From NCBI GenBank assembly GCA_028277115.1, contig JANQHG010000259.1:1-33765 (forward strand): a stretch of 33,765 nt of DNA, in the 5' to 3' direction. The DNA comes from Azospirillaceae bacterium (GTDB lineage: Bacteria; Pseudomonadota; Alphaproteobacteria; Azospirillales; Azospirillaceae). Shown piece by piece: positions 511 to 10,329 of the stretch. Positions within the stretch are counted from its first letter, which is position 1. Every line of letters begins with the position of its first letter. The position numbers and the translations under genes were made by a program. The notes under the pieces are model-generated. The model was not told where the DNA came from. It was given only the letters and a program-made list of their open reading frames with translations, and did no database searches.

Positions 511-666
511 TCGGCCCGGCGGCGCGTCCGTGCCGCGTGACGGGGTTGGTGCGACCTGATAACATCTGGTGCCGCGACAGTCCGCCGGTCGGTGTCGGAT
601 GCGGCGCTGTCGCGCCGGTTGCGCCCGACCCTGCGGCGGATCAGTGGACGATCTAGAAGATGTCCC

Positions 667-1560
667 ATGGAACGAACGCTTGCGGTCCTTTTCGTCGACA
701 TCGTCGACAGCACCCGACTCTATGAGACGCTCGGGAACGTCGAGGCAAGCTCACTGACTCGTGGGCGGCTGCAGGAGCTGATCCGGACCGCGACCGGCGC
801 CGGGGGACGCGTGATCAAGAGTTTGGGCGACGGCCTGCTGTGCGCCTTCGAAGCCGCGTCCGCCGCCGCCGCGGCGGCGTGCGATATGGTGCTCGACCCG
901 TCGGACCTGAGTGTCCGGGTCGGCCTGCACTACGGCGCGGTGGTCGAGACCAGCGACAACGACGATGTCGATATCGTCGGCGATGCGGTCAACCTGACCG
1001 CGCGTCTCCAGTCCTTGGCGCGCCCCGGCGAGATTTTGGCGACTGAGGATTTCGTGGTCGGCCTGCCGTCGGTGCTGCAGGCGCGCGCCGTCCTGCTCGA
1101 CCGGACCGCGGTCAAGGGCAAGACCACCCAGATCGCGATCTACACCCTGCACCCGCTCGACCGGGTCGATGACAGCCTGGAGACCACGGTGGTCGGGTCC
1201 CAGGTCTTGGCACCGATCCGCGACACCAGCATCACCCTGCAACTGACCTACCGCGGCGAGACCCATGTGATCGGTCGTGCCGTGTCCAAGCTGACCGTCG
1301 GGCGCGGCGACGCGTGCGATCTGCGCATTTGGTCAAAGCAGGCGTCGCGCCAACACGGCTCGATCGAGTTCAGCCGTGAGACCTTCATTCTTACTGATCA
1401 CTCTTCGAACGGGACCTATCTGTTGAGCGAGGCCGGCTACCCGATCCATTTGCATCGCGACAGCGCAAAGGTGATCGGGGCGGGGTTGATCGGGTTCGGT
1501 GCGGCGCCCGAGGATGAGGCCCAAGACCATGTCGTGCGCTACCGGTCCGAAGAGGGGTAG
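667..1560 (+). CDS. Class III adenylate cyclase fused to a C-terminal FHA domain
   Basis: This 297-residue soluble protein has two recognisable domains. Residues about 3-165 are a class III nucleotide cyclase. The metal-binding aspartates are D11 (FVDIVDST) and D55 (SLGDGLL). The adenine-selecting pair K51 and D102 and the transition-state residues N109 and R113 (DAVNLTARL) are all present, so it should be active and make cAMP rather than cGMP. Residues about 190-280 are an FHA domain, with G212-R213, S227, H230 and S246-x-N248-G249-T250, the canonical phosphothreonine-binding set. The ATG at 667 was chosen because the cyclase fold begins immediately after it; an in-frame start at 592 would add 25 unconserved residues. 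There is no membrane segment. The gene is convergent with exoD. A phosphopeptide-gated cyclase is inferred from the domain order. Confidence 0.9.
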   Translation: MERTLAVLFVDIVDSTRLYETLGNVEASSLTRGRLQELIRTATGAGGRVIKSLGDGLLCAFEAASAAAAAACDMVLDPSDLSVRVGLHYGAVVETSDNDDVDIVGDAVNLTARLQSLARPGEILATEDFVVGLPSVLQARAVLLDRTAVKGKTTQIAIYTLHPLDRVDDSLETTVVGSQVLAPIRDTSITLQLTYRGETHVIGRAVSKLTVGRGDACDLRIWSKQASRQHGSIEFSRETFILTDHSSNGTYLLSEAGYPIHLHRDSAKVIGAGLIGFGAAPEDEAQDHVVRYRSEEG

Positions 1561-2326: not shown

Positions 2327-2938
2327 TCATACGGAATCCACGGGATCGCCTCTGGGCACACCGACCAGCGCAAGGTTGAGCGCCGCGACGGTCGGTGTGC
2401 CGTCGAGGCCGAGCAGGAAGCGATGTCCGCGGCCGGCGATCAGGCGATGGGGCGGCTTTCGGGACATGTCCCAGCCGGTGGCCAGCGCATAGAGCGCGCG
2501 CAGCACGCCGTGGTGGGTGACCGCGCCGGCCGGTTGGCCGGCGGCGGCGCGGGCGGCGAGGAACGGTGCAAGCCGGTGTTGGACGTCGCGTGGCGACTCC
2601 CCGCCGGGCGGGCGCAGGTCGAGGCCAGCCGCCTCATGCTCGGCGGTCAGCACGCCCGCGCCGCGCAGATCGGCAAGCCGCTCGCCTTCCCACGCACCCC
2701 ACGCCATTTCGGCGAGCGCGGGGCACGGCGTTGCCGCGACCCCGAGCCGACGGGCGGTTTCGACCGCGCGCGCGAGCGGGCTGGTAAACCACGCGCGGGC
2801 CCGGTCGGCCGGGGCCAGCGTCCAGCGATCGGCATCGGCCCGGCCGGCCGCGGACAGCGGGATGTCGGTGCGCCCCTGGAGCCGCCCGTCCGCGTTCCAG
2901 GCCGTCGGCGCATGCCGGATCACCAGGAGATCGGTCAT
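2327..2938 (-). CDS. Histidine phosphatase (phosphoglycerate mutase-like) family protein
   Basis: This 203-residue protein belongs to the two-histidine phosphatase superfamily. The N-terminal catalytic motif is R8-H9 in LLVIRHAPTAWN, followed by the phosphate-pocket sequence RLQGRTDIPLS. A glutamate-containing segment EMAWGAWEGE provides the probable proton donor. The second histidine lies in AVTHHGVLRAL. The substrate cannot be told from sequence; alpha-ribazole phosphatase (CobC-like) and sugar-phosphate phosphatases share these motifs. The ATG at 2938 overlaps the TGA of the upstream glycosyltransferase gene by 4 nt (ATGA), so translation is probably coupled. It is the last gene of a four-gene operon, which suggests that it acts on a phosphorylated sugar or lipid intermediate of the same pathway; that is inference. 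Confidence 0.85.
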   Translation of the reverse strand: MTDLLVIRHAPTAWNADGRLQGRTDIPLSAAGRADADRWTLAPADRARAWFTSPLARAVETARRLGVAATPCPALAEMAWGAWEGERLADLRGAGVLTAEHEAAGLDLRPPGGESPRDVQHRLAPFLAARAAAGQPAGAVTHHGVLRALYALATGWDMSRKPPHRLIAGRGHRFLLGLDGTPTVAALNLALVGVPRGDPVDSV

Positions 2939-4098
2939 CGGTCGGGGGCGACGGCGACCGGGTTGGCGCCGGTCAACCGGGACAGCACCCGGTCGAGCCG
3001 CGCTGCGGCGCGCGCAAGATCGTGCTCGGCCGCGACCCGGGCCTCGGCGGCGGCGGCGTAAGCGGCCCGGCGCGCCGGGTCGTCGATCAGCGCGCCGAGC
3101 GCGCCGGCAAACGCCGCGGCGTCGCCGGGCGGCACCAGCTCGCCGGTGGTGCCGGCGGCGACGATGTCGCCGACCCCGCCGCTGTGCCCGGCGACCACCG
3201 CGAGCCCGGTCGCCTGCGCCTCGAGCAGCGCCATGCCGTAGGCTTCGTCGATCGCAGGCCAGACCATCAGGTCGGCCGCGGCATACAGCGCCGGCAGCCG
3301 GTCGCCGTCGACCGCGCCGAGCCAGACCAGCCGCTCCGCCGGCAGGCCGGCGAACGCCGCCTCGATCGCGGCACGCCGCGGGCCGTCGCCGACCAGGATC
3401 AGCTGCCAGCGCCGGTCGGGCAGGCAGCGGAGCGCGTCGGCGAGCACCGCGAACGACCGCTCCTTCGCGCCCGCGCGCATCATGCCGACCGCGATCAGGC
3501 GGACCGCCCGGGGGTCGAGGCGGTGCGCCGCCGCCAACGCCGCCCGGTGCGCCGGCCGCGCCGCCGCCGCCGCCGCAAACGGTGCCGGATCGAGGAACGG
3601 CGGCAAACCGATCAAACGCCCCTCGTCGCAGCCCAACGCGCGCAGGCCCGGGCGATCCGCGCTGTTGACGACGAACAGCGCCTCGGCGCGCCGAATCGCG
3701 GCGGCGGCGGCGGCATGGCCGACCGCCCACGGACCGTCCGCGCGTCTGGGTGCGTGCGAGGCCTCGGCGATCACATATGGGATGCCGAGCGCGGCGGCGA
3801 CCGCCGGGCCAAGATGATCGGGGGCCTTGTAATAGACATGGTAGGTGAACCACAGATCGAACCGGTCGGTGGCGGCGGCGCGGCGCACCAGCCGCGCCGC
3901 GAGCCGCCGACCGATCGCGCCGAGCCGGGTCTGGCGCGCCGGGTCGCCGTCGCCGTCGCGGCTGCGCAACCGCGACGCCAGCACGACCCGATGACCGGAG
4001 CGGGCCAGCGCCGTCATCAACGCCCGCGCCATCCGGCGGTCGCCCGACGGCACCGGATGGTCCGGCGGCTTCAATGGCGCATAAAAGGCGATGTTCAT
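2935..4098 (-). CDS. Glycosyltransferase family 4 protein
   Basis: This 387-residue protein has the two Rossmann-like halves of a GT-B enzyme. The N-terminus (MNIAFYAPLKPPDHPVPSGD) carries the acceptor-side signature of family 4. The C-terminal half holds LILVGDGPRR and the nucleotide-sugar site DEAYGMALLEAQATG, which matches the E-x7-E pattern (E in DEAYG and E in LLEA). GT4 enzymes are retaining transferases that build polysaccharides, lipopolysaccharide or glycolipids at the cytoplasmic face of the membrane. The donor and acceptor are not predictable here. It overlaps the preceding glycosyltransferase gene by 4 nt (ATGA at 4095-4098) and the next gene, a phosphatase, by 4 nt. The coding strand is extremely rich in Ala, Arg and Gly codons, like its neighbours, so there is no sign of recent transfer. 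Confidence 0.9.
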   Translation of the reverse strand: MNIAFYAPLKPPDHPVPSGDRRMARALMTALARSGHRVVLASRLRSRDGDGDPARQTRLGAIGRRLAARLVRRAAATDRFDLWFTYHVYYKAPDHLGPAVAAALGIPYVIAEASHAPRRADGPWAVGHAAAAAAIRRAEALFVVNSADRPGLRALGCDEGRLIGLPPFLDPAPFAAAAAARPAHRAALAAAHRLDPRAVRLIAVGMMRAGAKERSFAVLADALRCLPDRRWQLILVGDGPRRAAIEAAFAGLPAERLVWLGAVDGDRLPALYAAADLMVWPAIDEAYGMALLEAQATGLAVVAGHSGGVGDIVAAGTTGELVPPGDAAAFAGALGALIDDPARRAAYAAAAEARVAAEHDLARAAARLDRVLSRLTGANPVAVAPDR

Positions 4099-5477
4099 GT
4101 CGGGATGGCGGCCAGAGTCTTGGCCGGATCTTCGCCAATAGCCCAGGCACGGTCGGCTCGGGCGGCCAACCGGGCCGACAGCGCGTCGAGCCCGGGGGCG
4201 GCGTCGAACCGGGTCTCGACCCGCCGGCGCCCGGCCGCGGCCTGGGCGGCGCGTCGGTCGGGCGCCGCTGCCAGGGCGGCGATCGCCGCCGCCAATGCGG
4301 CCGGGTCGGCGGGCGCGACCAGATGTCCCGTGACGCCGTGCTCGATCAACTCGGGGATCGCGCCGGCAGAGGTCGCCAGGCACGGCAGGCCGAGCAGCAG
4401 GGCCTCCATCAACACGTTGGGCAAACCGTCGCGGTCGCCGTCGCGCGCCGCGCGCGCCGGCAGCACGAACAGATCGGAGGTGCGATAAGCCTCGATCACC
4501 GCGTCGTGCGCCTGGGCGCCCCGCCATGCGATCCGGTCCGCCAGGCCGAGGGCGACGGCCCGGTGCCGCAGCGACGCCAATAGCGGACCATTGCCGATGT
4601 GGGTCCAACGCCAATGGAGGTGATCAGGCAGGTCGGCCAGTGCTTCGAGCAGGGTGTCGAAGCCCTTCTTTTCGACCGCCCGGCCAACCGAGACCAGGCG
4701 GATCGGGTCGGCCGGGTCGGCGCCGGTGCGCGGCGGTCGCGCTGCCGGCGGCGGCGGGAACCGGCGCCGGTCGAGGCCATGGTAAAGCAACGAGACCCGG
4801 TCCGGCTCGGCGGCGAGGTGCCGAAGCGCGGCGAGACCAGCGCGGGTGCAGGTCACCCCCCACGCCGCCTCGGCGAGCTTGGCGCGGGCGTCCCAGTCCG
4901 GCGTGGTCCAAATGTCCTTGGCATGGGCCGAGAATGACCAGGGACGGCCGGTCAGGAGCGCGGCATAGCGCGCAACGCTTGCCGGCGTGTGGAGGAAATG
5001 GGCGTAGAGATGGGTCACCTCGGCCGGCAGTTCGGCGGCGAGCACGCAGGCTTGGCCGAACCGGCGCACCCGGTTGCGGGTGCGGTCGCGGGCGAGATCG
5101 CGCCGCCACGCGGCCAGCGCTGCCGCCCAGCCGGGCCGCCGGCGCGCGGCGCGGACCGCGCGCACCACCCGGCGTGGCTCGTCGTGCAGATACTCGGGCA
5201 GATAGGTCACCGGCGCGCGCAGCGCCCGGTTGAGCGGGTGCACCGCCGGGTCGGTCGGATGACGCAGGGAGAACACGACAAGGCGATGGCCGCGATCCTC
5301 GAGGCCGACCAACTCCTGGGCGATGAAGGTTTCGGACAGCCGTGGCCAGCCCTTGACGATCACGGCGATCCAAGCGTGCGGATCGGGCGGGGCGGCCGCT
5401 CGGTCCGGATCGGCGCTGCCGGCCCCGGCGTCGGGGGCGGCCGCCACCAGGCGGCGTGCGCCGAGCGGTCCGCTCAC
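4095..5477 (-). CDS. Glycosyltransferase family 4 protein, colanic-acid (AmsK/WcaL) type
   Basis: This 460-residue protein has, after a short Ala/Pro-rich leader (about 1-35), the stretch VKGWPRLSETFIAQEL. That stretch marks the AmsK/WcaL-like branch of GT4 involved in exopolysaccharide assembly. HAKDIWTTPDW and VSVGRAVEKKGFDTLLEA are typical internal motifs. The nucleotide-sugar site reads DGLPNVLMEALLLGLP, with D in place of the first E of E-x7-E, a substitution that is common in this branch. The start is GTG at 5477, overlapping the TGA of the upstream gene by 4 nt (GTGA). No ATG is present near the conserved beginning, so the leader length is slightly uncertain. It is the second gene of the operon. 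Confidence 0.9.
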   Translation of the reverse strand: MSGPLGARRLVAAAPDAGAGSADPDRAAAPPDPHAWIAVIVKGWPRLSETFIAQELVGLEDRGHRLVVFSLRHPTDPAVHPLNRALRAPVTYLPEYLHDEPRRVVRAVRAARRRPGWAAALAAWRRDLARDRTRNRVRRFGQACVLAAELPAEVTHLYAHFLHTPASVARYAALLTGRPWSFSAHAKDIWTTPDWDARAKLAEAAWGVTCTRAGLAALRHLAAEPDRVSLLYHGLDRRRFPPPPAARPPRTGADPADPIRLVSVGRAVEKKGFDTLLEALADLPDHLHWRWTHIGNGPLLASLRHRAVALGLADRIAWRGAQAHDAVIEAYRTSDLFVLPARAARDGDRDGLPNVLMEALLLGLPCLATSAGAIPELIEHGVTGHLVAPADPAALAAAIAALAAAPDRRAAQAAAGRRRVETRFDAAPGLDALSARLAARADRAWAIGEDPAKTLAAIPT

Positions 5478-6715
5478 AGCGCCCGGACCCACGGCCGGAC
5501 CAGGTGGAGGGTCGGCGCCGGTTCGCGGCCGCGCCGCCCGCGCGCCAGCATCGCGGTCGCGCGCTGGTTGACCCGGCTGACCCCGTCGAGCAGCCCCGGC
5601 ACCACCACCCGTGACGGCCGCGGCTGCGCGGGCAGCCGGTGCAGCGCCGCCGCCATCGACGCCGGATCGCGGACGTCGTCGTCGACCAGCATGGTGACCA
5701 GACCGAGCGCGGCGGCGCGGCGGGCCCGGATCAGCTGCTCGCGCCGCGGGGTCTGGCGTGGCACCAGGAGTGCCCGGCAGTCGAACGACAGAATCTCGCA
5801 AAAGGTGTTGTAGCCGCCCATCGCGACCACCCCGATTGCAGCACGCATCAGGCTTTCGAGCCGGACCTCGAACCCGAGCACCTCGACCCTGTCGAGTCGG
5901 TCGGCGCGCGCGGCGAACTCGGCCTGGCGGTCGGCCGACATGAACGGGCCGAGCACGATCACCGCCCGGTGCGGCAGGGTCGGGTCGTGTTCATAGGCGC
6001 GCAACGTCCAATCGACCAAGTCCTCGCCATCGCCGCCGCCGCCGGCGGTGACCAGGATGTAAGGGTCAGCCGGGCCGCCGCCGGCGCCCGGGGTCGGCGC
6101 CGGCAGATCGCGGCGCAGATAGCCGGTATAGACCATCCGGCGGCGCACCGGCTCGGGCAACTCGATCCCGGCGAGCGGGTCGCAGATCGTCTCGAGCCCA
6201 TAGACCCACAGCTCGTCGTACAGGTCCTCGAGCGCCGGCAGCACGTTCTTGCGCGTCCATTCCGGGACCAACAGCGCGGGCTCGTCCATCACGTCGCGCA
6301 GGCCGAGCACCAACGGCACGCCGCGGTCTTTCAGCATTTCGAGCGTGTCGCGGACCTCGCCGCGCAGGCCGACCGGCTCCTTGTCGACGATGAACAGGTC
6401 GGGATCGAAGCTTTCGGCGGTGTGACGGATGATCGAGGCGCGGATCGCCAGCGTCTCTTCGATGTCGATGTGCAGATTGAGCGAGGTGTAGGCGCCGTTG
6501 CGCAGCTTGATGACGCCCGGGACCCGGACGAAGTCGACGCGGGTGCGGAACTCGAAGCTGCCGATGATCGGCGACCCCGACAGGATCAACACCGACATAT
6601 CTTTGTGATGCTCGACCAGCGCGTGCGCGATCGCCCGACATCGGCGCAGATGGCCGAGACCAAACGAATCGTGGCTGTAGATCAGGACCCGCTGGTGCCT
6701 GCTGCGGTCGGTCAT
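5474..6715 (-). CDS. MurG-like predicted glycosyltransferase (COG4671 type)
   Basis: This 413-residue GT-B protein resembles the MurG/family 28 group of uncharacterised glycosyltransferases. The N-terminal glycine loop reads HDSFGLGHLRRC (about 15-26), close to the GxGHxxR pattern of MurG. Near residue 150, the segment VLGLRDVMDEP is typical of the COG4671 group. The C-terminal half has PYILVTAGGGGDGEDLV and the donor-site sequence VAMGGYNTFCEILSF, where MurG has a GGxxSxxE arrangement. The ATG at 6715 directly precedes the conserved strand; an earlier in-frame start at 6775 would add unconserved residues. It is the first gene of the four-gene operon. It is divergent from the ABC exporter-like gene across 345 bp, so the two transcription units may share a control region. 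Confidence 0.88.
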   Translation of the reverse strand: MTDRSRHQRVLIYSHDSFGLGHLRRCRAIAHALVEHHKDMSVLILSGSPIIGSFEFRTRVDFVRVPGVIKLRNGAYTSLNLHIDIEETLAIRASIIRHTAESFDPDLFIVDKEPVGLRGEVRDTLEMLKDRGVPLVLGLRDVMDEPALLVPEWTRKNVLPALEDLYDELWVYGLETICDPLAGIELPEPVRRRMVYTGYLRRDLPAPTPGAGGGPADPYILVTAGGGGDGEDLVDWTLRAYEHDPTLPHRAVIVLGPFMSADRQAEFAARADRLDRVEVLGFEVRLESLMRAAIGVVAMGGYNTFCEILSFDCRALLVPRQTPRREQLIRARRAAALGLVTMLVDDDVRDPASMAAALHRLPAQPRPSRVVVPGLLDGVSRVNQRATAMLARGRRGREPAPTLHLVRPWVRAL

Positions 6716-7060
6716 AACGGTCGGTCTCGATCGAATGCGCGTGGGGTAGGCGCACCGCCGACGTCCATCGACCACGCCGGTCGGCGCGTTGGCACCGTCC
6801 TGCCGCGATCGGCCCGCCCCGGCTGCGGCGCCCCGCGCGACCCTTCAACGTCTGGGTCGCGGACCCGGTGTCCCGCGCTCTCTAACAGAAAACGGCGGAG
6901 GTCAGCTATCGCCTCGCGCCGGTGGCCTGCCTTATAGTCGGTGTGTGCCGCGCACATGCCACGGGGGCCGGCGCTGCCGGGTTTTCTCAAGGCACGGGAC
7001 GCATTCGACCTCCCGCCCGTCCGCTCTTGCCCTTGCCGTCATCGCCGCCCGTGGAACCCG
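6716..7060. other. Divergent intergenic region between the glycosyltransferase operon and the ABC gene
   Basis: These 345 bp separate two divergent transcription units. Reading frames here are short and lack conserved sequence, so I call no gene. A TTATAGT sequence near 6931-6937 could serve as a -10 element for the rightward gene, but no convincing -35 accompanies it. Other than the bidirectional layout, I see no clear operator or terminator. Confidence 0.5.
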
Positions 7061-9721
7061 ATGGAACCGACGGTCTTTCGCTTCATCCTGCGTCACAGCT
7101 TGGCCCAACAGGTCCAGATTCTGGCGCTGACCCTGGCGTCGTTCCCGTTTCTGTATCTCTCGCTCGATCTGCCGAAACGGATCGTCAACGACGCGCTTGC
7201 CGCCTTCGACCCCGCGACCACGGTCGCTGGGGTCCCGGTCGACCGGGTCGGCTATCTGATGCTGTTGTCGTTCCTGTTCCTTTTGATGGTCGTGATTAAC
7301 GGTCTGTTCAAATATGTGATCAATACTTTTAAAGGTCGAGTCGGAGAACGGATGTTGCGCCGACTTCGTTACTCACTTTATGAACAAATTCTGATCTTTC
7401 CGTTGGCGAAGTTTAAGAAAACCTCATCTGGTGAGATCATCCCGATCATCACCTCGGAGGTCGAACCGCTGGGCGGCTTCATCGCCGACGCGATCGCCCA
7501 GCCGGTGTTCCAGGGCGGCACCCTGTGCGTCTACCTCGCCTTCATTTTCATCCAGGACCCGGTGCTCGGCCTTGCCGCGGTTGCGCTTTATCCGTTTCAA
7601 GGGTGGATCATTCCGCACCTGCAACGAAAAATCAACCAGCTGGGAAAGCAACGGGTCCAGGCGGTTCGGCAGATCTCGGAACGAATCGGCGAAACGGTGA
7701 CCGGCATCCAGGAGATCCACAATCACGGCACCGCCCCCTGGCACCGCGCCGACATGTCGAACCGATTCGGGGACGTGTTCGACATTCGATTTGAGATCTA
7801 CCAGCGTAAGTTTTTTATGAAATTTCTTAATAATTTTATTAACCAACTTACGCCATTTTTTTTCTATTCAATCGGCGGTTACCTGGTCTTGACCGGCGAT
7901 TTGTCGTTCGGCGCCCTGGTCGCGGTGCTGGCAGCCTATAAGGATCTGGCGAGCCCGTGGCGCGAGTTGTTGATCTGGTACCAGCAAAAAGAGGATGCGC
8001 GGATCAAGTACGACCAAGTGATCGAGCAGTTCCGCGGCACCGAGGCGGGGCGGCCGCCGGCACCGGCGGACGCGCCGGACCGGTTAACCGGCGCGCTGGT
8101 GCTGTCCCATGTCGGGGTCGGGGAGGACAGCGGCACCCGGGTGGTCGAGGATGTCAGCTGTACCCTGCCGCTCGACCGCCACACCGCGGTGGTCAACGCC
8201 GGCGGCGGCGGCCAGGACGAGTTCGCCCTGGTGATCGGGCGCCTGATCGCCCCCGATCACGGCGGGCTCGCGGTCGACGGGGTCGATTATGCTCGTTTCT
8301 CAAGCGAAACGATCGGTCGTCGGGTTGCGACCGTCGGGCCGGGCGCGGTGCTGTTCGCCGCGTCGCTGCTCGACAACATCCTCTACAGCCTGCGCCGCCG
8401 CCCCGCGCCCGAGCGGACGTCGGACGCGCTCGCCGCACGCGATCCGGCCGCGACGGCGCGCCGGCGCCGGCGGGCGGCCGAAGCGCTTGCGGCCGGCAAC
8501 CCGCCGGACGACGCCGAGCAGGATTGGGTCGATCCGGCGGCGGCCGGATGCACCGATCGCGCCGCATTGTGGCAGCGCCTCGTCGCGGTGCTCGAAACCG
8601 TCGGGCTGGCCGAGGACGTTGTCCGATTCGGGCTGGCCGGCACGATCGACCCGGCGGCGCGCCCCGAGGTTGCTCGGCGCCTGCTCGACGCCCGGCACGC
8701 GCTGGCCGAGCGGCTGGCCGCCGAGGGGCTCGAGGAGATCGTGGTGCCGTTCGCCGGCGCGCGGTTCAACCCGAACGCCACCGTGGCCGAGAACATCTTG
8801 TTTGGTACCCCGGTCGGCAGCACCTTCGCGCTCGACCGCATGGCCGCCGAGCCGTATGTCCGCCGGGTGCTCGACCAGGCCGGCTTGACCGACCGTTTGG
8901 TCGGGGCCGGGCTCACCGTCGCCGAAACCATGCTTGAGATGTTCGCCGAGCTGTCGCCGGGCCACGAGTTGTTCGAGCGGTTCAGCTTCGTCGGTGCGGA
9001 CGAGTTGCCCGGGTTGAAGGCGATCTTGGACCAGGCGGCCCAAGGGGGGACGAACACCCTTGGCGACCCCGAACGCACCGCGCTGATCGGGCTGGTGCTG
9101 CGGCTGATCCCCGCGCGCCATCGTCTGGGCGTGGTCGACGACGCGCTGGCCGAGCGGATTCTTCAGGCACGCCGGTGTTTTGCCCGCGACCTGCCGCCGG
9201 CGCTCAGCGGTGCGGTCGCGTTCTTCGACCCCGCGCGTTACAATGCGGCAATCTCTGTTCAAGACAATATCTTGTTCGGCCGCTTTGCCTATGGCGAGAC
9301 CCAGACGGCGAGCCGGCGGGTGCGTGCGTTGCTCGCCGAGGTGATCGACCGCATGGCGTTGCGCCCGACCCTGGTCGAGGTCGGGCTCGACCATCAGGTC
9401 GGGGTCGGCGGCCAACGACTGTCGGCGGCGCAGCGCCAAAAGGCGGCGTTGGCGCGGGCCCTGATCAAGGACCCCGACCTTCTGGTGCTCAACGAGGCGA
9501 CCGCGGTACTCGACAGCGAAAGCCAGGCGGCGGTGCACGAGGCCCTGCTCGCGTGGCGCGCCGGCCGGGGTCTGGTCTGGTTCGTTCACCGCCCAACGTT
9601 CGCGCGGCGGTTCGACCAGGTGATCGTGCTGCGTCACGGCCGGGTGGTCGAGGCGGGCGGTTTCGATGCTTTGGTGGCGAACGGCGGCGTGCTTGCGGAG
9701 TTGCTCGAGGCGGTGTCATAG
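7061..9721 (+). CDS. Large ABC exporter-like protein with degenerate ATPase motifs and a long nucleotide-domain insertion
   Basis: This 886-residue protein starts with an ABC type 1 exporter membrane domain (about 10-310, roughly six membrane segments). A nucleotide-binding-like domain follows (about 340-886). Walker A is degenerate: NAGGGGQDEF (379-388) lacks the GK[S/T] core. The Q-loop region VGPGAVLFAASLLDNILYSL (425-444) lacks the glutamine. About 340 residues are then inserted before the signature RLSAAQRQ (786-793). Walker B reads LLVLNEAT, with N811 for the usual Asp but E812 kept. The H-loop His843 is present. The insertion contains two further Q-loop-like pieces, AENILFG (576-582) and QDNILFG (734-740). 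ATP hydrolysis is therefore doubtful. The ATG at 7061 was preferred over 6941 because MEPTVFRFILRHS fits an exporter N-terminus. The substrate is unknown; its neighbours suggest glycan or lipid. Confidence 0.88.
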   Translation: MEPTVFRFILRHSLAQQVQILALTLASFPFLYLSLDLPKRIVNDALAAFDPATTVAGVPVDRVGYLMLLSFLFLLMVVINGLFKYVINTFKGRVGERMLRRLRYSLYEQILIFPLAKFKKTSSGEIIPIITSEVEPLGGFIADAIAQPVFQGGTLCVYLAFIFIQDPVLGLAAVALYPFQGWIIPHLQRKINQLGKQRVQAVRQISERIGETVTGIQEIHNHGTAPWHRADMSNRFGDVFDIRFEIYQRKFFMKFLNNFINQLTPFFFYSIGGYLVLTGDLSFGALVAVLAAYKDLASPWRELLIWYQQKEDARIKYDQVIEQFRGTEAGRPPAPADAPDRLTGALVLSHVGVGEDSGTRVVEDVSCTLPLDRHTAVVNAGGGGQDEFALVIGRLIAPDHGGLAVDGVDYARFSSETIGRRVATVGPGAVLFAASLLDNILYSLRRRPAPERTSDALAARDPAATARRRRRAAEALAAGNPPDDAEQDWVDPAAAGCTDRAALWQRLVAVLETVGLAEDVVRFGLAGTIDPAARPEVARRLLDARHALAERLAAEGLEEIVVPFAGARFNPNATVAENILFGTPVGSTFALDRMAAEPYVRRVLDQAGLTDRLVGAGLTVAETMLEMFAELSPGHELFERFSFVGADELPGLKAILDQAAQGGTNTLGDPERTALIGLVLRLIPARHRLGVVDDALAERILQARRCFARDLPPALSGAVAFFDPARYNAAISVQDNILFGRFAYGETQTASRRVRALLAEVIDRMALRPTLVEVGLDHQVGVGGQRLSAAQRQKAALARALIKDPDLLVLNEATAVLDSESQAAVHEALLAWRAGRGLVWFVHRPTFARRFDQVIVLRHGRVVEAGGFDALVANGGVLAELLEAVS
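7800..7875 (+). other. AT-rich codon patch inside the ABC membrane domain
   Basis: About 75 bp coding residues about 248-272 (KFFMKFLNNFINQLTPFFF region) use codons such as AAT, TTT, ATT and CTT that are scarce elsewhere in the window. It includes a T8 run at 7856-7863. A milder AT-rich stretch occurs at about 7306-7440. The frame stays open throughout. Confidence 0.7.
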
Positions 9722-9765: not shown

Positions 9766-10329
9766 ATGGGCGAGCTGTCTCAAGCCGACACCACGCTCGG
9801 CGCCAGCATTGCCGACGAGGTGCGGCTGTTGAAGCGGATCCCGTTGTTCGCCGGGATCGACACCAAGAAGTTGAAGCTGCTCGCGTTCACCAGCGAACGC
9901 CAGCGCTTCGAACCGGGCGACCTCTTGGTCCGCGAGGGCGAGGTCGGGACCTCGGCCTTCATCATCATCGACGGCGAAGCCGATGTGCTGATCGAGACCG
10001 CGCACGGGCCGCTGTGCGTGTCCGAGGTCCGGCGCTACGGCATCGTCGGCGACATCGCGATCTTGTGCGACGTCCGCCGCACCGCGACCGTGCGCGCGCG
10101 CACCAAGGTCGACGCCCTGTGTATCACCAAGGACTTGTTCTTCAGCTTGGTGCACGAGTTTCCCGAGATGGGGATCGAGATCATGCGGGTGCTCGCGCGG
10201 CGGGTTGATCGGATGACCCGCCTGGTGCGCGACACCGTAGACCGGCACGACGTCGAGGCCGCGGCCGGGTCCGACCATGCCGCGGCGCCGGACGCCGGCG
10301 ACGGCGCACCGACGCCAGGCGCGCATTGA
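9766..10329 (+). CDS. Stand-alone cyclic-nucleotide-binding domain protein
   Basis: This 187-residue soluble protein is essentially one cNMP-binding beta-barrel (about 25-145). It begins with LLKRIPLFAGIDTKKLKLLA and continues through the GDLLVREGEVGTSAFIIIDG strands. The phosphate-binding cassette reads VGDIAILCDVRRTATVRA (94-111). R105, which should bind the cyclic phosphate, is present at the correct spacing, but the usual Glu of GE is Asp (D96). No Crp-type helix-turn-helix follows; the last 40 residues are Ala/Asp/Pro-rich and probably disordered. The ATG at 9766 has GGGAGAGGA upstream. It lies 44 bp after the ABC gene in the same direction and is very likely co-transcribed, so I infer a regulatory or structural partner of that transporter rather than a transcription factor. 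Confidence 0.9.
   Translation: MGELSQADTTLGASIADEVRLLKRIPLFAGIDTKKLKLLAFTSERQRFEPGDLLVREGEVGTSAFIIIDGEADVLIETAHGPLCVSEVRRYGIVGDIAILCDVRRTATVRARTKVDALCITKDLFFSLVHEFPEMGIEIMRVLARRVDRMTRLVRDTVDRHDVEAAAGSDHAAAPDAGDGAPTPGAH

Follow-up and report, generated by a model that had tools for sequence, protein, structure and literature searches.

In the type IV ABC exporters (ABCB/MsbA), a transmembrane domain (TMD) is followed by a nucleotide-binding domain (NBD) built of two halves. The protein described here, which we call pseudo-ABC, shares with them the fold and topology of the TMD, the order of the NBD halves, the D-loop, and the signature helix, but lacks the A-loop, the Walker A Ser/Thr, the Q-loop Gln, the LSGGQ signature, and the Walker B Asp. 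Its NBD is split by about 300 residues, and it has a cyclic-nucleotide-binding (CNB) partner. Heterodimeric degenerate-site exporters (TM287/288, TmrAB, TAP, BmrCD) likewise have one chain in which some catalytic motifs are lost, but ATP binding generally persists in these degenerate halves, along with the A-loop and GK[ST]. Pseudo-ABC differs from them in the residues it has lost, in its insertion, and in having no exporter half in its locus. CFTR (ABCC7) is an ABC exporter turned channel that carries a regulatory insertion and is ATP-gated and controlled by phosphorylation. It offers an analogy only, that of an exporter fold reused under second-messenger control; the pseudo-ABC insertion is unrelated, and we claim homology for the ABC fold alone. 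The CNB partner shares with stand-alone CNB proteins (PF00027) the phosphate-binding cassette G-E-[IL]-A...P-R-T-A and differs from the CRP/FNR transcription factors, which have a helix-turn-helix (HTH), in having none.

Results

An intact exporter-like gene with a split NBD

The window, by which we mean the whole stretch of DNA analysed, is 33,765 nucleotides long and comes from an Azospirillaceae bacterium (contig JANQHG010000259.1); its features are collected in Table 1. Residue counts below refer to 133 distinct homologues in the numbering of the window protein.

Table 1. Features of the pseudo-ABC locus, in window coordinates
Feature	Position	Strand	Remarks
Adenylate/guanylate cyclase with FHA domain	592..1560	+	PF00211 + PF00498
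Histidine-phosphatase-family protein	2330..2935 (limits approximate)	-	PF00300
Second GT4 glycosyltransferase	2935..4098 (limits approximate)	-	
GT4 glycosyltransferase	4098..5400 (start approximate)	-	PF00534
GT28-like glycosyltransferase, divergent, conserved neighbour	5474..6775	-	PF04101
Pseudo-ABC exporter	7061..9721	+	886 aa, start ATG 7061; PF00664 E 1.2e-23
ABCB-type TMD, residues 1-330	7061..8050	+	PF00664; AF2; Foldseek to ABCB/MsbA exporters
NBD N-terminal half, residues 340-437	8078..8371	+	A-loop E355-D356, Walker A remnant, P427
Degenerate Walker A NAGGGGQDEF, residues 379-388	8195..8224	+	
Conserved ~300-aa insertion, residues 440-735	8378..9265	+	Helical; two extra Q-loop/helical-subdomain copies
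Repeat 2 motif, residues 558-584, FNPNATVAENILFG	8732..8812	+	Strand-helix-strand
Repeat 3 motif, residues 716-742, FDPARYNAAISVQDNILFG	9206..9286	+	Strand-helix-strand; runs into signature half
NBD C-terminal half, residues 736-884	9266..9712	+	LSAAQ, LLVLNE, D-loop D818, H843
CNB protein, 187 aa, without HTH	9766..10329	+	PF00027 E 1.4e-14

Translation of pseudo-ABC runs across 7061-9721 with no stop, giving 886 uninterrupted residues. Pfam, AlphaFold2 (AF2), and Foldseek all assign it a six-helix exporter TMD (PF00664) with long intracellular helices; the full-length AF2 model (pLDDT 91) has an ABCB fold, and Foldseek matches P-gp, PaMsbA (9bd6, TMt 0.66), TmrAB, and Atm1. From the NBD, Pfam recovers the C-terminal part alone (PF00005, ABC_tran, residues 758-815, E 1.1e-7). 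The protein scores 206 bits against the MsbA model, for which the cut-off is 602, and it reaches no NCBIfam cut-off among the best models listed.

A sequence-only reading of this DNA had described an ABC exporter with broken ATPase motifs, namely NAGGGGQDEF at Walker A, a missing Q-loop Gln, LSAAQ, and Asn in Walker B next to a retained Glu812 and His843. All of these are present: Pro427 stands at the Q-loop Gln, LSAAQ at 787-791, and LLVLN811-E812 at Walker B, with His843 further on. The single NILYS and paired NILFG that it reported lie at residues 439-443 and at 578-582 and 736-740. It had also called the stretch from Q-loop to signature over-long, and 361 residues indeed separate the Q-loop position from the signature Ser, about 300 more than in a canonical exporter. 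In place of a contiguous NBD of ~230-250 aa, every one of the 133 homologues carries ~300 extra residues.

A family conserved across Alphaproteobacteria

Relatives were found in 132 of 385 genomes sampled across Alphaproteobacteria and in 18 of 59 related genomes, and a profile of the insertion alone, run against 299 genomes of the phylum, returned no members outside the same class. Named members include Rhizobium etli CFN 42 p42e RHE_RS24195 and proteins of R. johnstonii 3841 pRL11, Sinorhizobium meliloti pSymB, Azospirillum sp. B510, and Ruegeria conchae. Their only labels in public records are "ABC transporter ATP-binding protein" or "ABC transporter transmembrane domain-containing protein"; a literature search by motif words returned nothing on the family. 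A second full-length copy, 47% identical, is encoded on a different contig of the same genome. The divergent paralogue of this genome (L002/L048, G000:C256:7823-10453) lacks a CNB gene and adjoins STAS and HATPase_c_2 (anti-sigma-like) genes.

In no domain or pair examined does pairwise dN/dS reach 0.6; most values lie under 0.35, and those for the insertion are 0.04-0.34, which agrees with the earlier view that the 2.6-kb frame is intact and its degeneration maintained rather than a sign of decay. By column entropy the TMD is the most conserved domain (mean 1.43, compared with 1.80-2.01 for the others), and the insertion is conserved on a par with the NBD. Together with the residue patterns described next, these data support a new conserved subfamily of bacterial membrane proteins that has no name in Pfam or NCBIfam. 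Its sequences also support an intact, selected, pseudo-ATPase-like protein, from which we infer that ATPase activity has been lost.

Remodelling of the ATP site

The canonical exporter set (Walker A GxxGxGK[ST], A-loop aromatic, Walker B Asp-Glu with the H-loop His, LSGGQ, and Q-loop Gln) is absent from the window protein, and no homologue among the 133 has all core motifs together. At the A-loop, aligned position 355 is Asp or Glu in 125/133 and aromatic in 0/133; a count of A-loop aromatics within a five-residue window proved misleading and was discarded, since the aligned position is acidic. The Walker A Ser/Thr position, 386, holds Asp or Glu in 99 homologues and Ser or Thr in nine, and the Walker B Asp position, 811, holds Asn or Ser in 98 and Asp in 18. 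Most members have lost the A-loop aromatic together with both Mg2+ ligands, Walker A Ser/Thr and Walker B Asp; acidic groups at the adenine and Mg2+ positions argue that the loss is directional, not random. Only 28/133 keep the Q-loop Gln and 9/133 the signature's second Gly (Pro427 and LSAAQ in the window).

Other positions vary more. The sequence-only reading had both the Walker A Lys and Ser/Thr missing, which is true of the window copy (NAGGGGQDE) and, for Ser/Thr, of the family at large. The Lys is kept in 74/133, and its loss is ruled out as a family signature; a GxGSGK-like P-loop is present in many members. Similarly, the retention of the Walker B Glu and the H-loop His (N-E and H in the window) holds for most of the window's own clade (~16/20 sequences) and not family-wide, where the Glu is found in 73/133 and the His in 44/133.

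A close relative with intact Walker motifs, which would have spoken against conserved degeneration, was nearly found once. The protein L065:1495-4131(-), 52% identical, has an almost restored site (GNSGKT / LSGAQ / LDEAT / His), and its A-loop is still acidic. Because it is nested in the midpoint-rooted tree and keeps the acidic A-loop, its near-consensus site looks secondary and the degenerate state looks ancestral. Residual nucleotide binding by the NBD is possible, given this protein, the Glu812 and His843 of the window's clade, and the frequent Walker A Lys.

The insertion arose by internal duplication of the Q-loop subdomain

Including its edges, the insertion measures ~320 aa in nearly every homologue, and in none of the 133 does the distance from N439 to N736 fall outside 265-364 residues (median 292). 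The motif asparagines 439, 578, and 736 are invariant or nearly so, a point that the alignment proposed earlier was meant to check, and N578, N736, G740, R545, and R704 occur in 133/133. Such constant spacing and invariant residues argue that the insertion is not a chance event. Modelled alone with AF2 it is helical with a mean pLDDT of 94, and inside the full-length model pLDDT exceeds 90 over most of its length. The insertion has no Pfam match, no significant match among PDB sequences (best E 0.041 over 67 positions), and no match among PDB folds at E<=0.001. These searches rule out a known inserted domain, the outcome that would have undone the earlier interpretation.

The proposal that the Q-loop subdomain is internally duplicated fared well in profile comparisons, each judged against 40 column-shuffled controls and scoring well above them. 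Repeat 2 against repeat 3 gave E 2e-15 and a score of 84.6 (control maximum 19.5), and the linker plus motif of these two repeats gave E 6e-16. AF2 assigns both a common strand-loop-helix-strand layout with near-identical spacing (561/575/582 and 719/733/740). Repeat 1, the true Q-loop, is related to them more remotely (E 1.7e-5 and 1.5e-4; against repeat 3, E 1.7e-5 and a score of 34.3, control 19.4). The similar context claimed for all three motifs is marked in copies 2 and 3 and fainter in copy 1. At the level of sequence, repeats 2 and 3 are confirmed as duplicates of each other, and an origin of the extra domain by internal duplication of the Q-loop/helical subdomain is supported. The repeats resemble the C-terminal signature half no better than shuffled controls do; the duplicated unit is thus the Q-loop strand and the start of the helical subdomain, and duplication of a whole NBD is not supported.

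A CNB protein is encoded next to, or fused to, pseudo-ABC

The CNB gene begins with the ATG at 9766, 44 bp past the pseudo-ABC stop, and is preceded by GGGGGAGAGGA, which could plausibly serve as its own ribosome-binding site. A CNB gene lies directly downstream on the same strand at 77 of 109 loci and is fused to the C-terminus at another 22 (fused homologues of 1,050 aa are among them), for a total of 99/109; of the ten loci left, several are contig ends or belong to the divergent paralogue. This fusion in one branch and adjacency elsewhere strongly suggest that the two proteins are physically partnered. The phosphate-binding cassette of the window protein reads VGDIAIL...RRTA. Its phosphate-contacting Arg is kept in 99/99 partners and its acidic residue in 98/99 (Glu in 89, Asp in nine, the window among the latter), so ligand binding is expected. 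Pfam finds PF00027 alone in the 187 residues and no C-terminal HTH, which sets the protein apart from CRP/FNR transcription factors. In public records, the stand-alone CNB protein of S. meliloti R14 (L168:17809-18273) is labelled a Crp/Fnr transcriptional regulator though it has only ~155 aa.

The FHA-domain cyclase of the window is a possible source of the nucleotide signal. Three rhizobia (R. etli, S. meliloti, and R. johnstonii) carry a cyclase gene beside the locus, at the opposite end of the cluster. A single-sequence search placed one near 6/109 loci, and cyclases are common in these genomes, so the link is weak. Two further neighbours were observed: an NAD-kinase-like protein (PF20143/PF01513 in L030) lies upstream, next to or near the fused pseudo-ABC, in four genomes (L030, L031, L033, and L034), and the CNB genes of R. 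etli and R. johnstonii adjoin one gene for a RelE/ParE toxin and another, small one that is hypothetical (L165:18288-19036, L199:15294-16045).

Glycosyltransferase neighbours and the S. meliloti PPP cluster

Glycosyltransferases (GT4 and GT28-like) lie near 70 of the 109 loci, a histidine phosphatase near 57, a Dpp-like importer near 51, and a polysaccharide-deacetylase-like gene near 47. The rhizobial loci share a set of glycosyltransferase, importer, cyclase, pseudo-ABC, and CNB genes, in which they would resemble the cluster for PPP, an uncharacterised, phazolicin-protecting surface polysaccharide of S. meliloti (PMC10128002). According to that paper's account of its screen, nine genes among smb21252-smb21271 are needed for the putative PPP, and insertions in the adenylate cyclase gene cyaA were depleted; this account proposes no role for the pseudo-ABC or CNB gene (PMC10128002). 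In S. meliloti R14 the gene order is pseudo-ABC, CNB, FkbM, and LacI transcription factor, and SM_b21272 is a LacI transcription factor (PMC11387232). Since the LacI gene is the third past pseudo-ABC, the order of the tags places the S. meliloti homologue probably just inside the PPP cluster, among its last genes.

NBD-free relatives

Proteins of ~430-490 aa, 42-45% identical to the TMD, exist without an NBD. On Roseobacter plasmids they lie in copper-resistance islands, with a plastocyanin/azurin gene on one side and a cytochrome c gene on the other, and a genome of the window's own family has one near CusA, CusB-CusF, and a P-type ATPase. This TMD lineage is therefore able to exist with no ATPase domain on the same chain. 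The NBD-free TMDs include L169:9773-11077 (WP_009820143.1), L197:5773-7077, L198:5773-7077, and L056:8267-9625, and the conserved islands around them encode copper oxidase, plastocyanin/azurin, TolC, cytochrome c, and Cus efflux proteins. An ATP-independent, ABC-fold copper component is one possible role. These relatives, the CNB partner, and the glycosyltransferase locus are additions to what the sequence-only reading had noted.

Discussion

We suggest, with confidence that is evenly balanced, that pseudo-ABC is an ATPase-dead exporter whose state is set by the binding of a cyclic nucleotide instead of ATP hydrolysis, and that it serves surface-glycan assembly. In this model, the fold and the two halves of the NBD persist, while acidic residues take the adenine-stacking and Mg2+-holding positions and the Walker B Asp is gone. 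Two extra copies of the Q-loop/helical subdomain, with the original, would form a helical platform by the face that contacts the TMD, and the small CNB protein, as the product of the next gene or as a C-terminal fusion, would be the likely partner of this platform. Cyclic-nucleotide binding could then set the state of the TMD dimer through the enlarged NBD, making pseudo-ABC a passive gate or flippase, or an organiser, under cyclic-nucleotide control. Its cargo may be a surface glycan or glycolipid, the product of the adjacent GT4 and GT28-like glycosyltransferases. A bolder form, in which this is a cyclic-nucleotide-gated ABC transporter whose duplicated platform and CNB protein replace ATP hydrolysis, with an NBD-less sister lineage in copper-efflux islands, is tentative, and we rather doubt it.

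Pseudo-ABC could instead be a scaffold or receptor that transports nothing, a membrane anchor whose pseudo-NBD and CNB protein recruit or regulate glycosyltransferases in response to cyclic nucleotides. The helical insertion, as conserved as the NBD, and the linkage to glycosyltransferase and CNB genes would fit such a role. Still, the TMD is the most conserved part of the protein and survives alone in the NBD-free relatives, suggesting that the path through the membrane is important in itself, and we regard a pure scaffold as rather unlikely.

Somewhat less probable again is that pseudo-ABC forms the degenerate half of a heterodimer, with a canonical half encoded elsewhere and ATP still powering the other site. 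There is ample precedent for heterodimeric exporters in which one site is degenerate (PMC7756269). The same genome encodes several ordinary ABC exporters, and the residues retained in the window's clade (Glu812, His843) or in 74/133 homologues (Lys) would suit such a half. Against this, no exporter half recurs among the 109 loci, where the sole recurrent ABC ATPase is the double-NBD subunit of a Dpp-type importer, and the A-loop position is acidic nearly throughout; a distant partner is still conceivable.

That pseudo-ABC is an ordinary though divergent exporter, an active homodimeric ATPase that puts its acidic replacements to use in an unusual site, seems to us improbable: the GxGSGK-like P-loop of many members, the catalytic Glu in 73/133, and the near-consensus L065 are in its favour, but in most members the A-loop aromatic has gone along with the Mg2+ ligands, and the full set of core motifs is found in none. 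A decaying gene or chance oddity, which the broken motifs alone might suggest, is ruled out for practical purposes by the spread over 132/385 genomes, dN/dS below 0.6 throughout, the near-constant length of the insertion, and its invariant residues.

ABC exporters are defined by ATP-driven movement. Pseudo-ABC keeps the exporter TMD, has a remodelled ATP site, and has gained a CNB partner. The family, present in about a third of the sampled Alphaproteobacteria, model rhizobia included, makes it possible to ask directly whether a second messenger can take the place of ATP as the switch of an ABC exporter. Plant symbionts have a poorly characterised surface polysaccharide, and for its transport or organisation the family also provides a candidate component.
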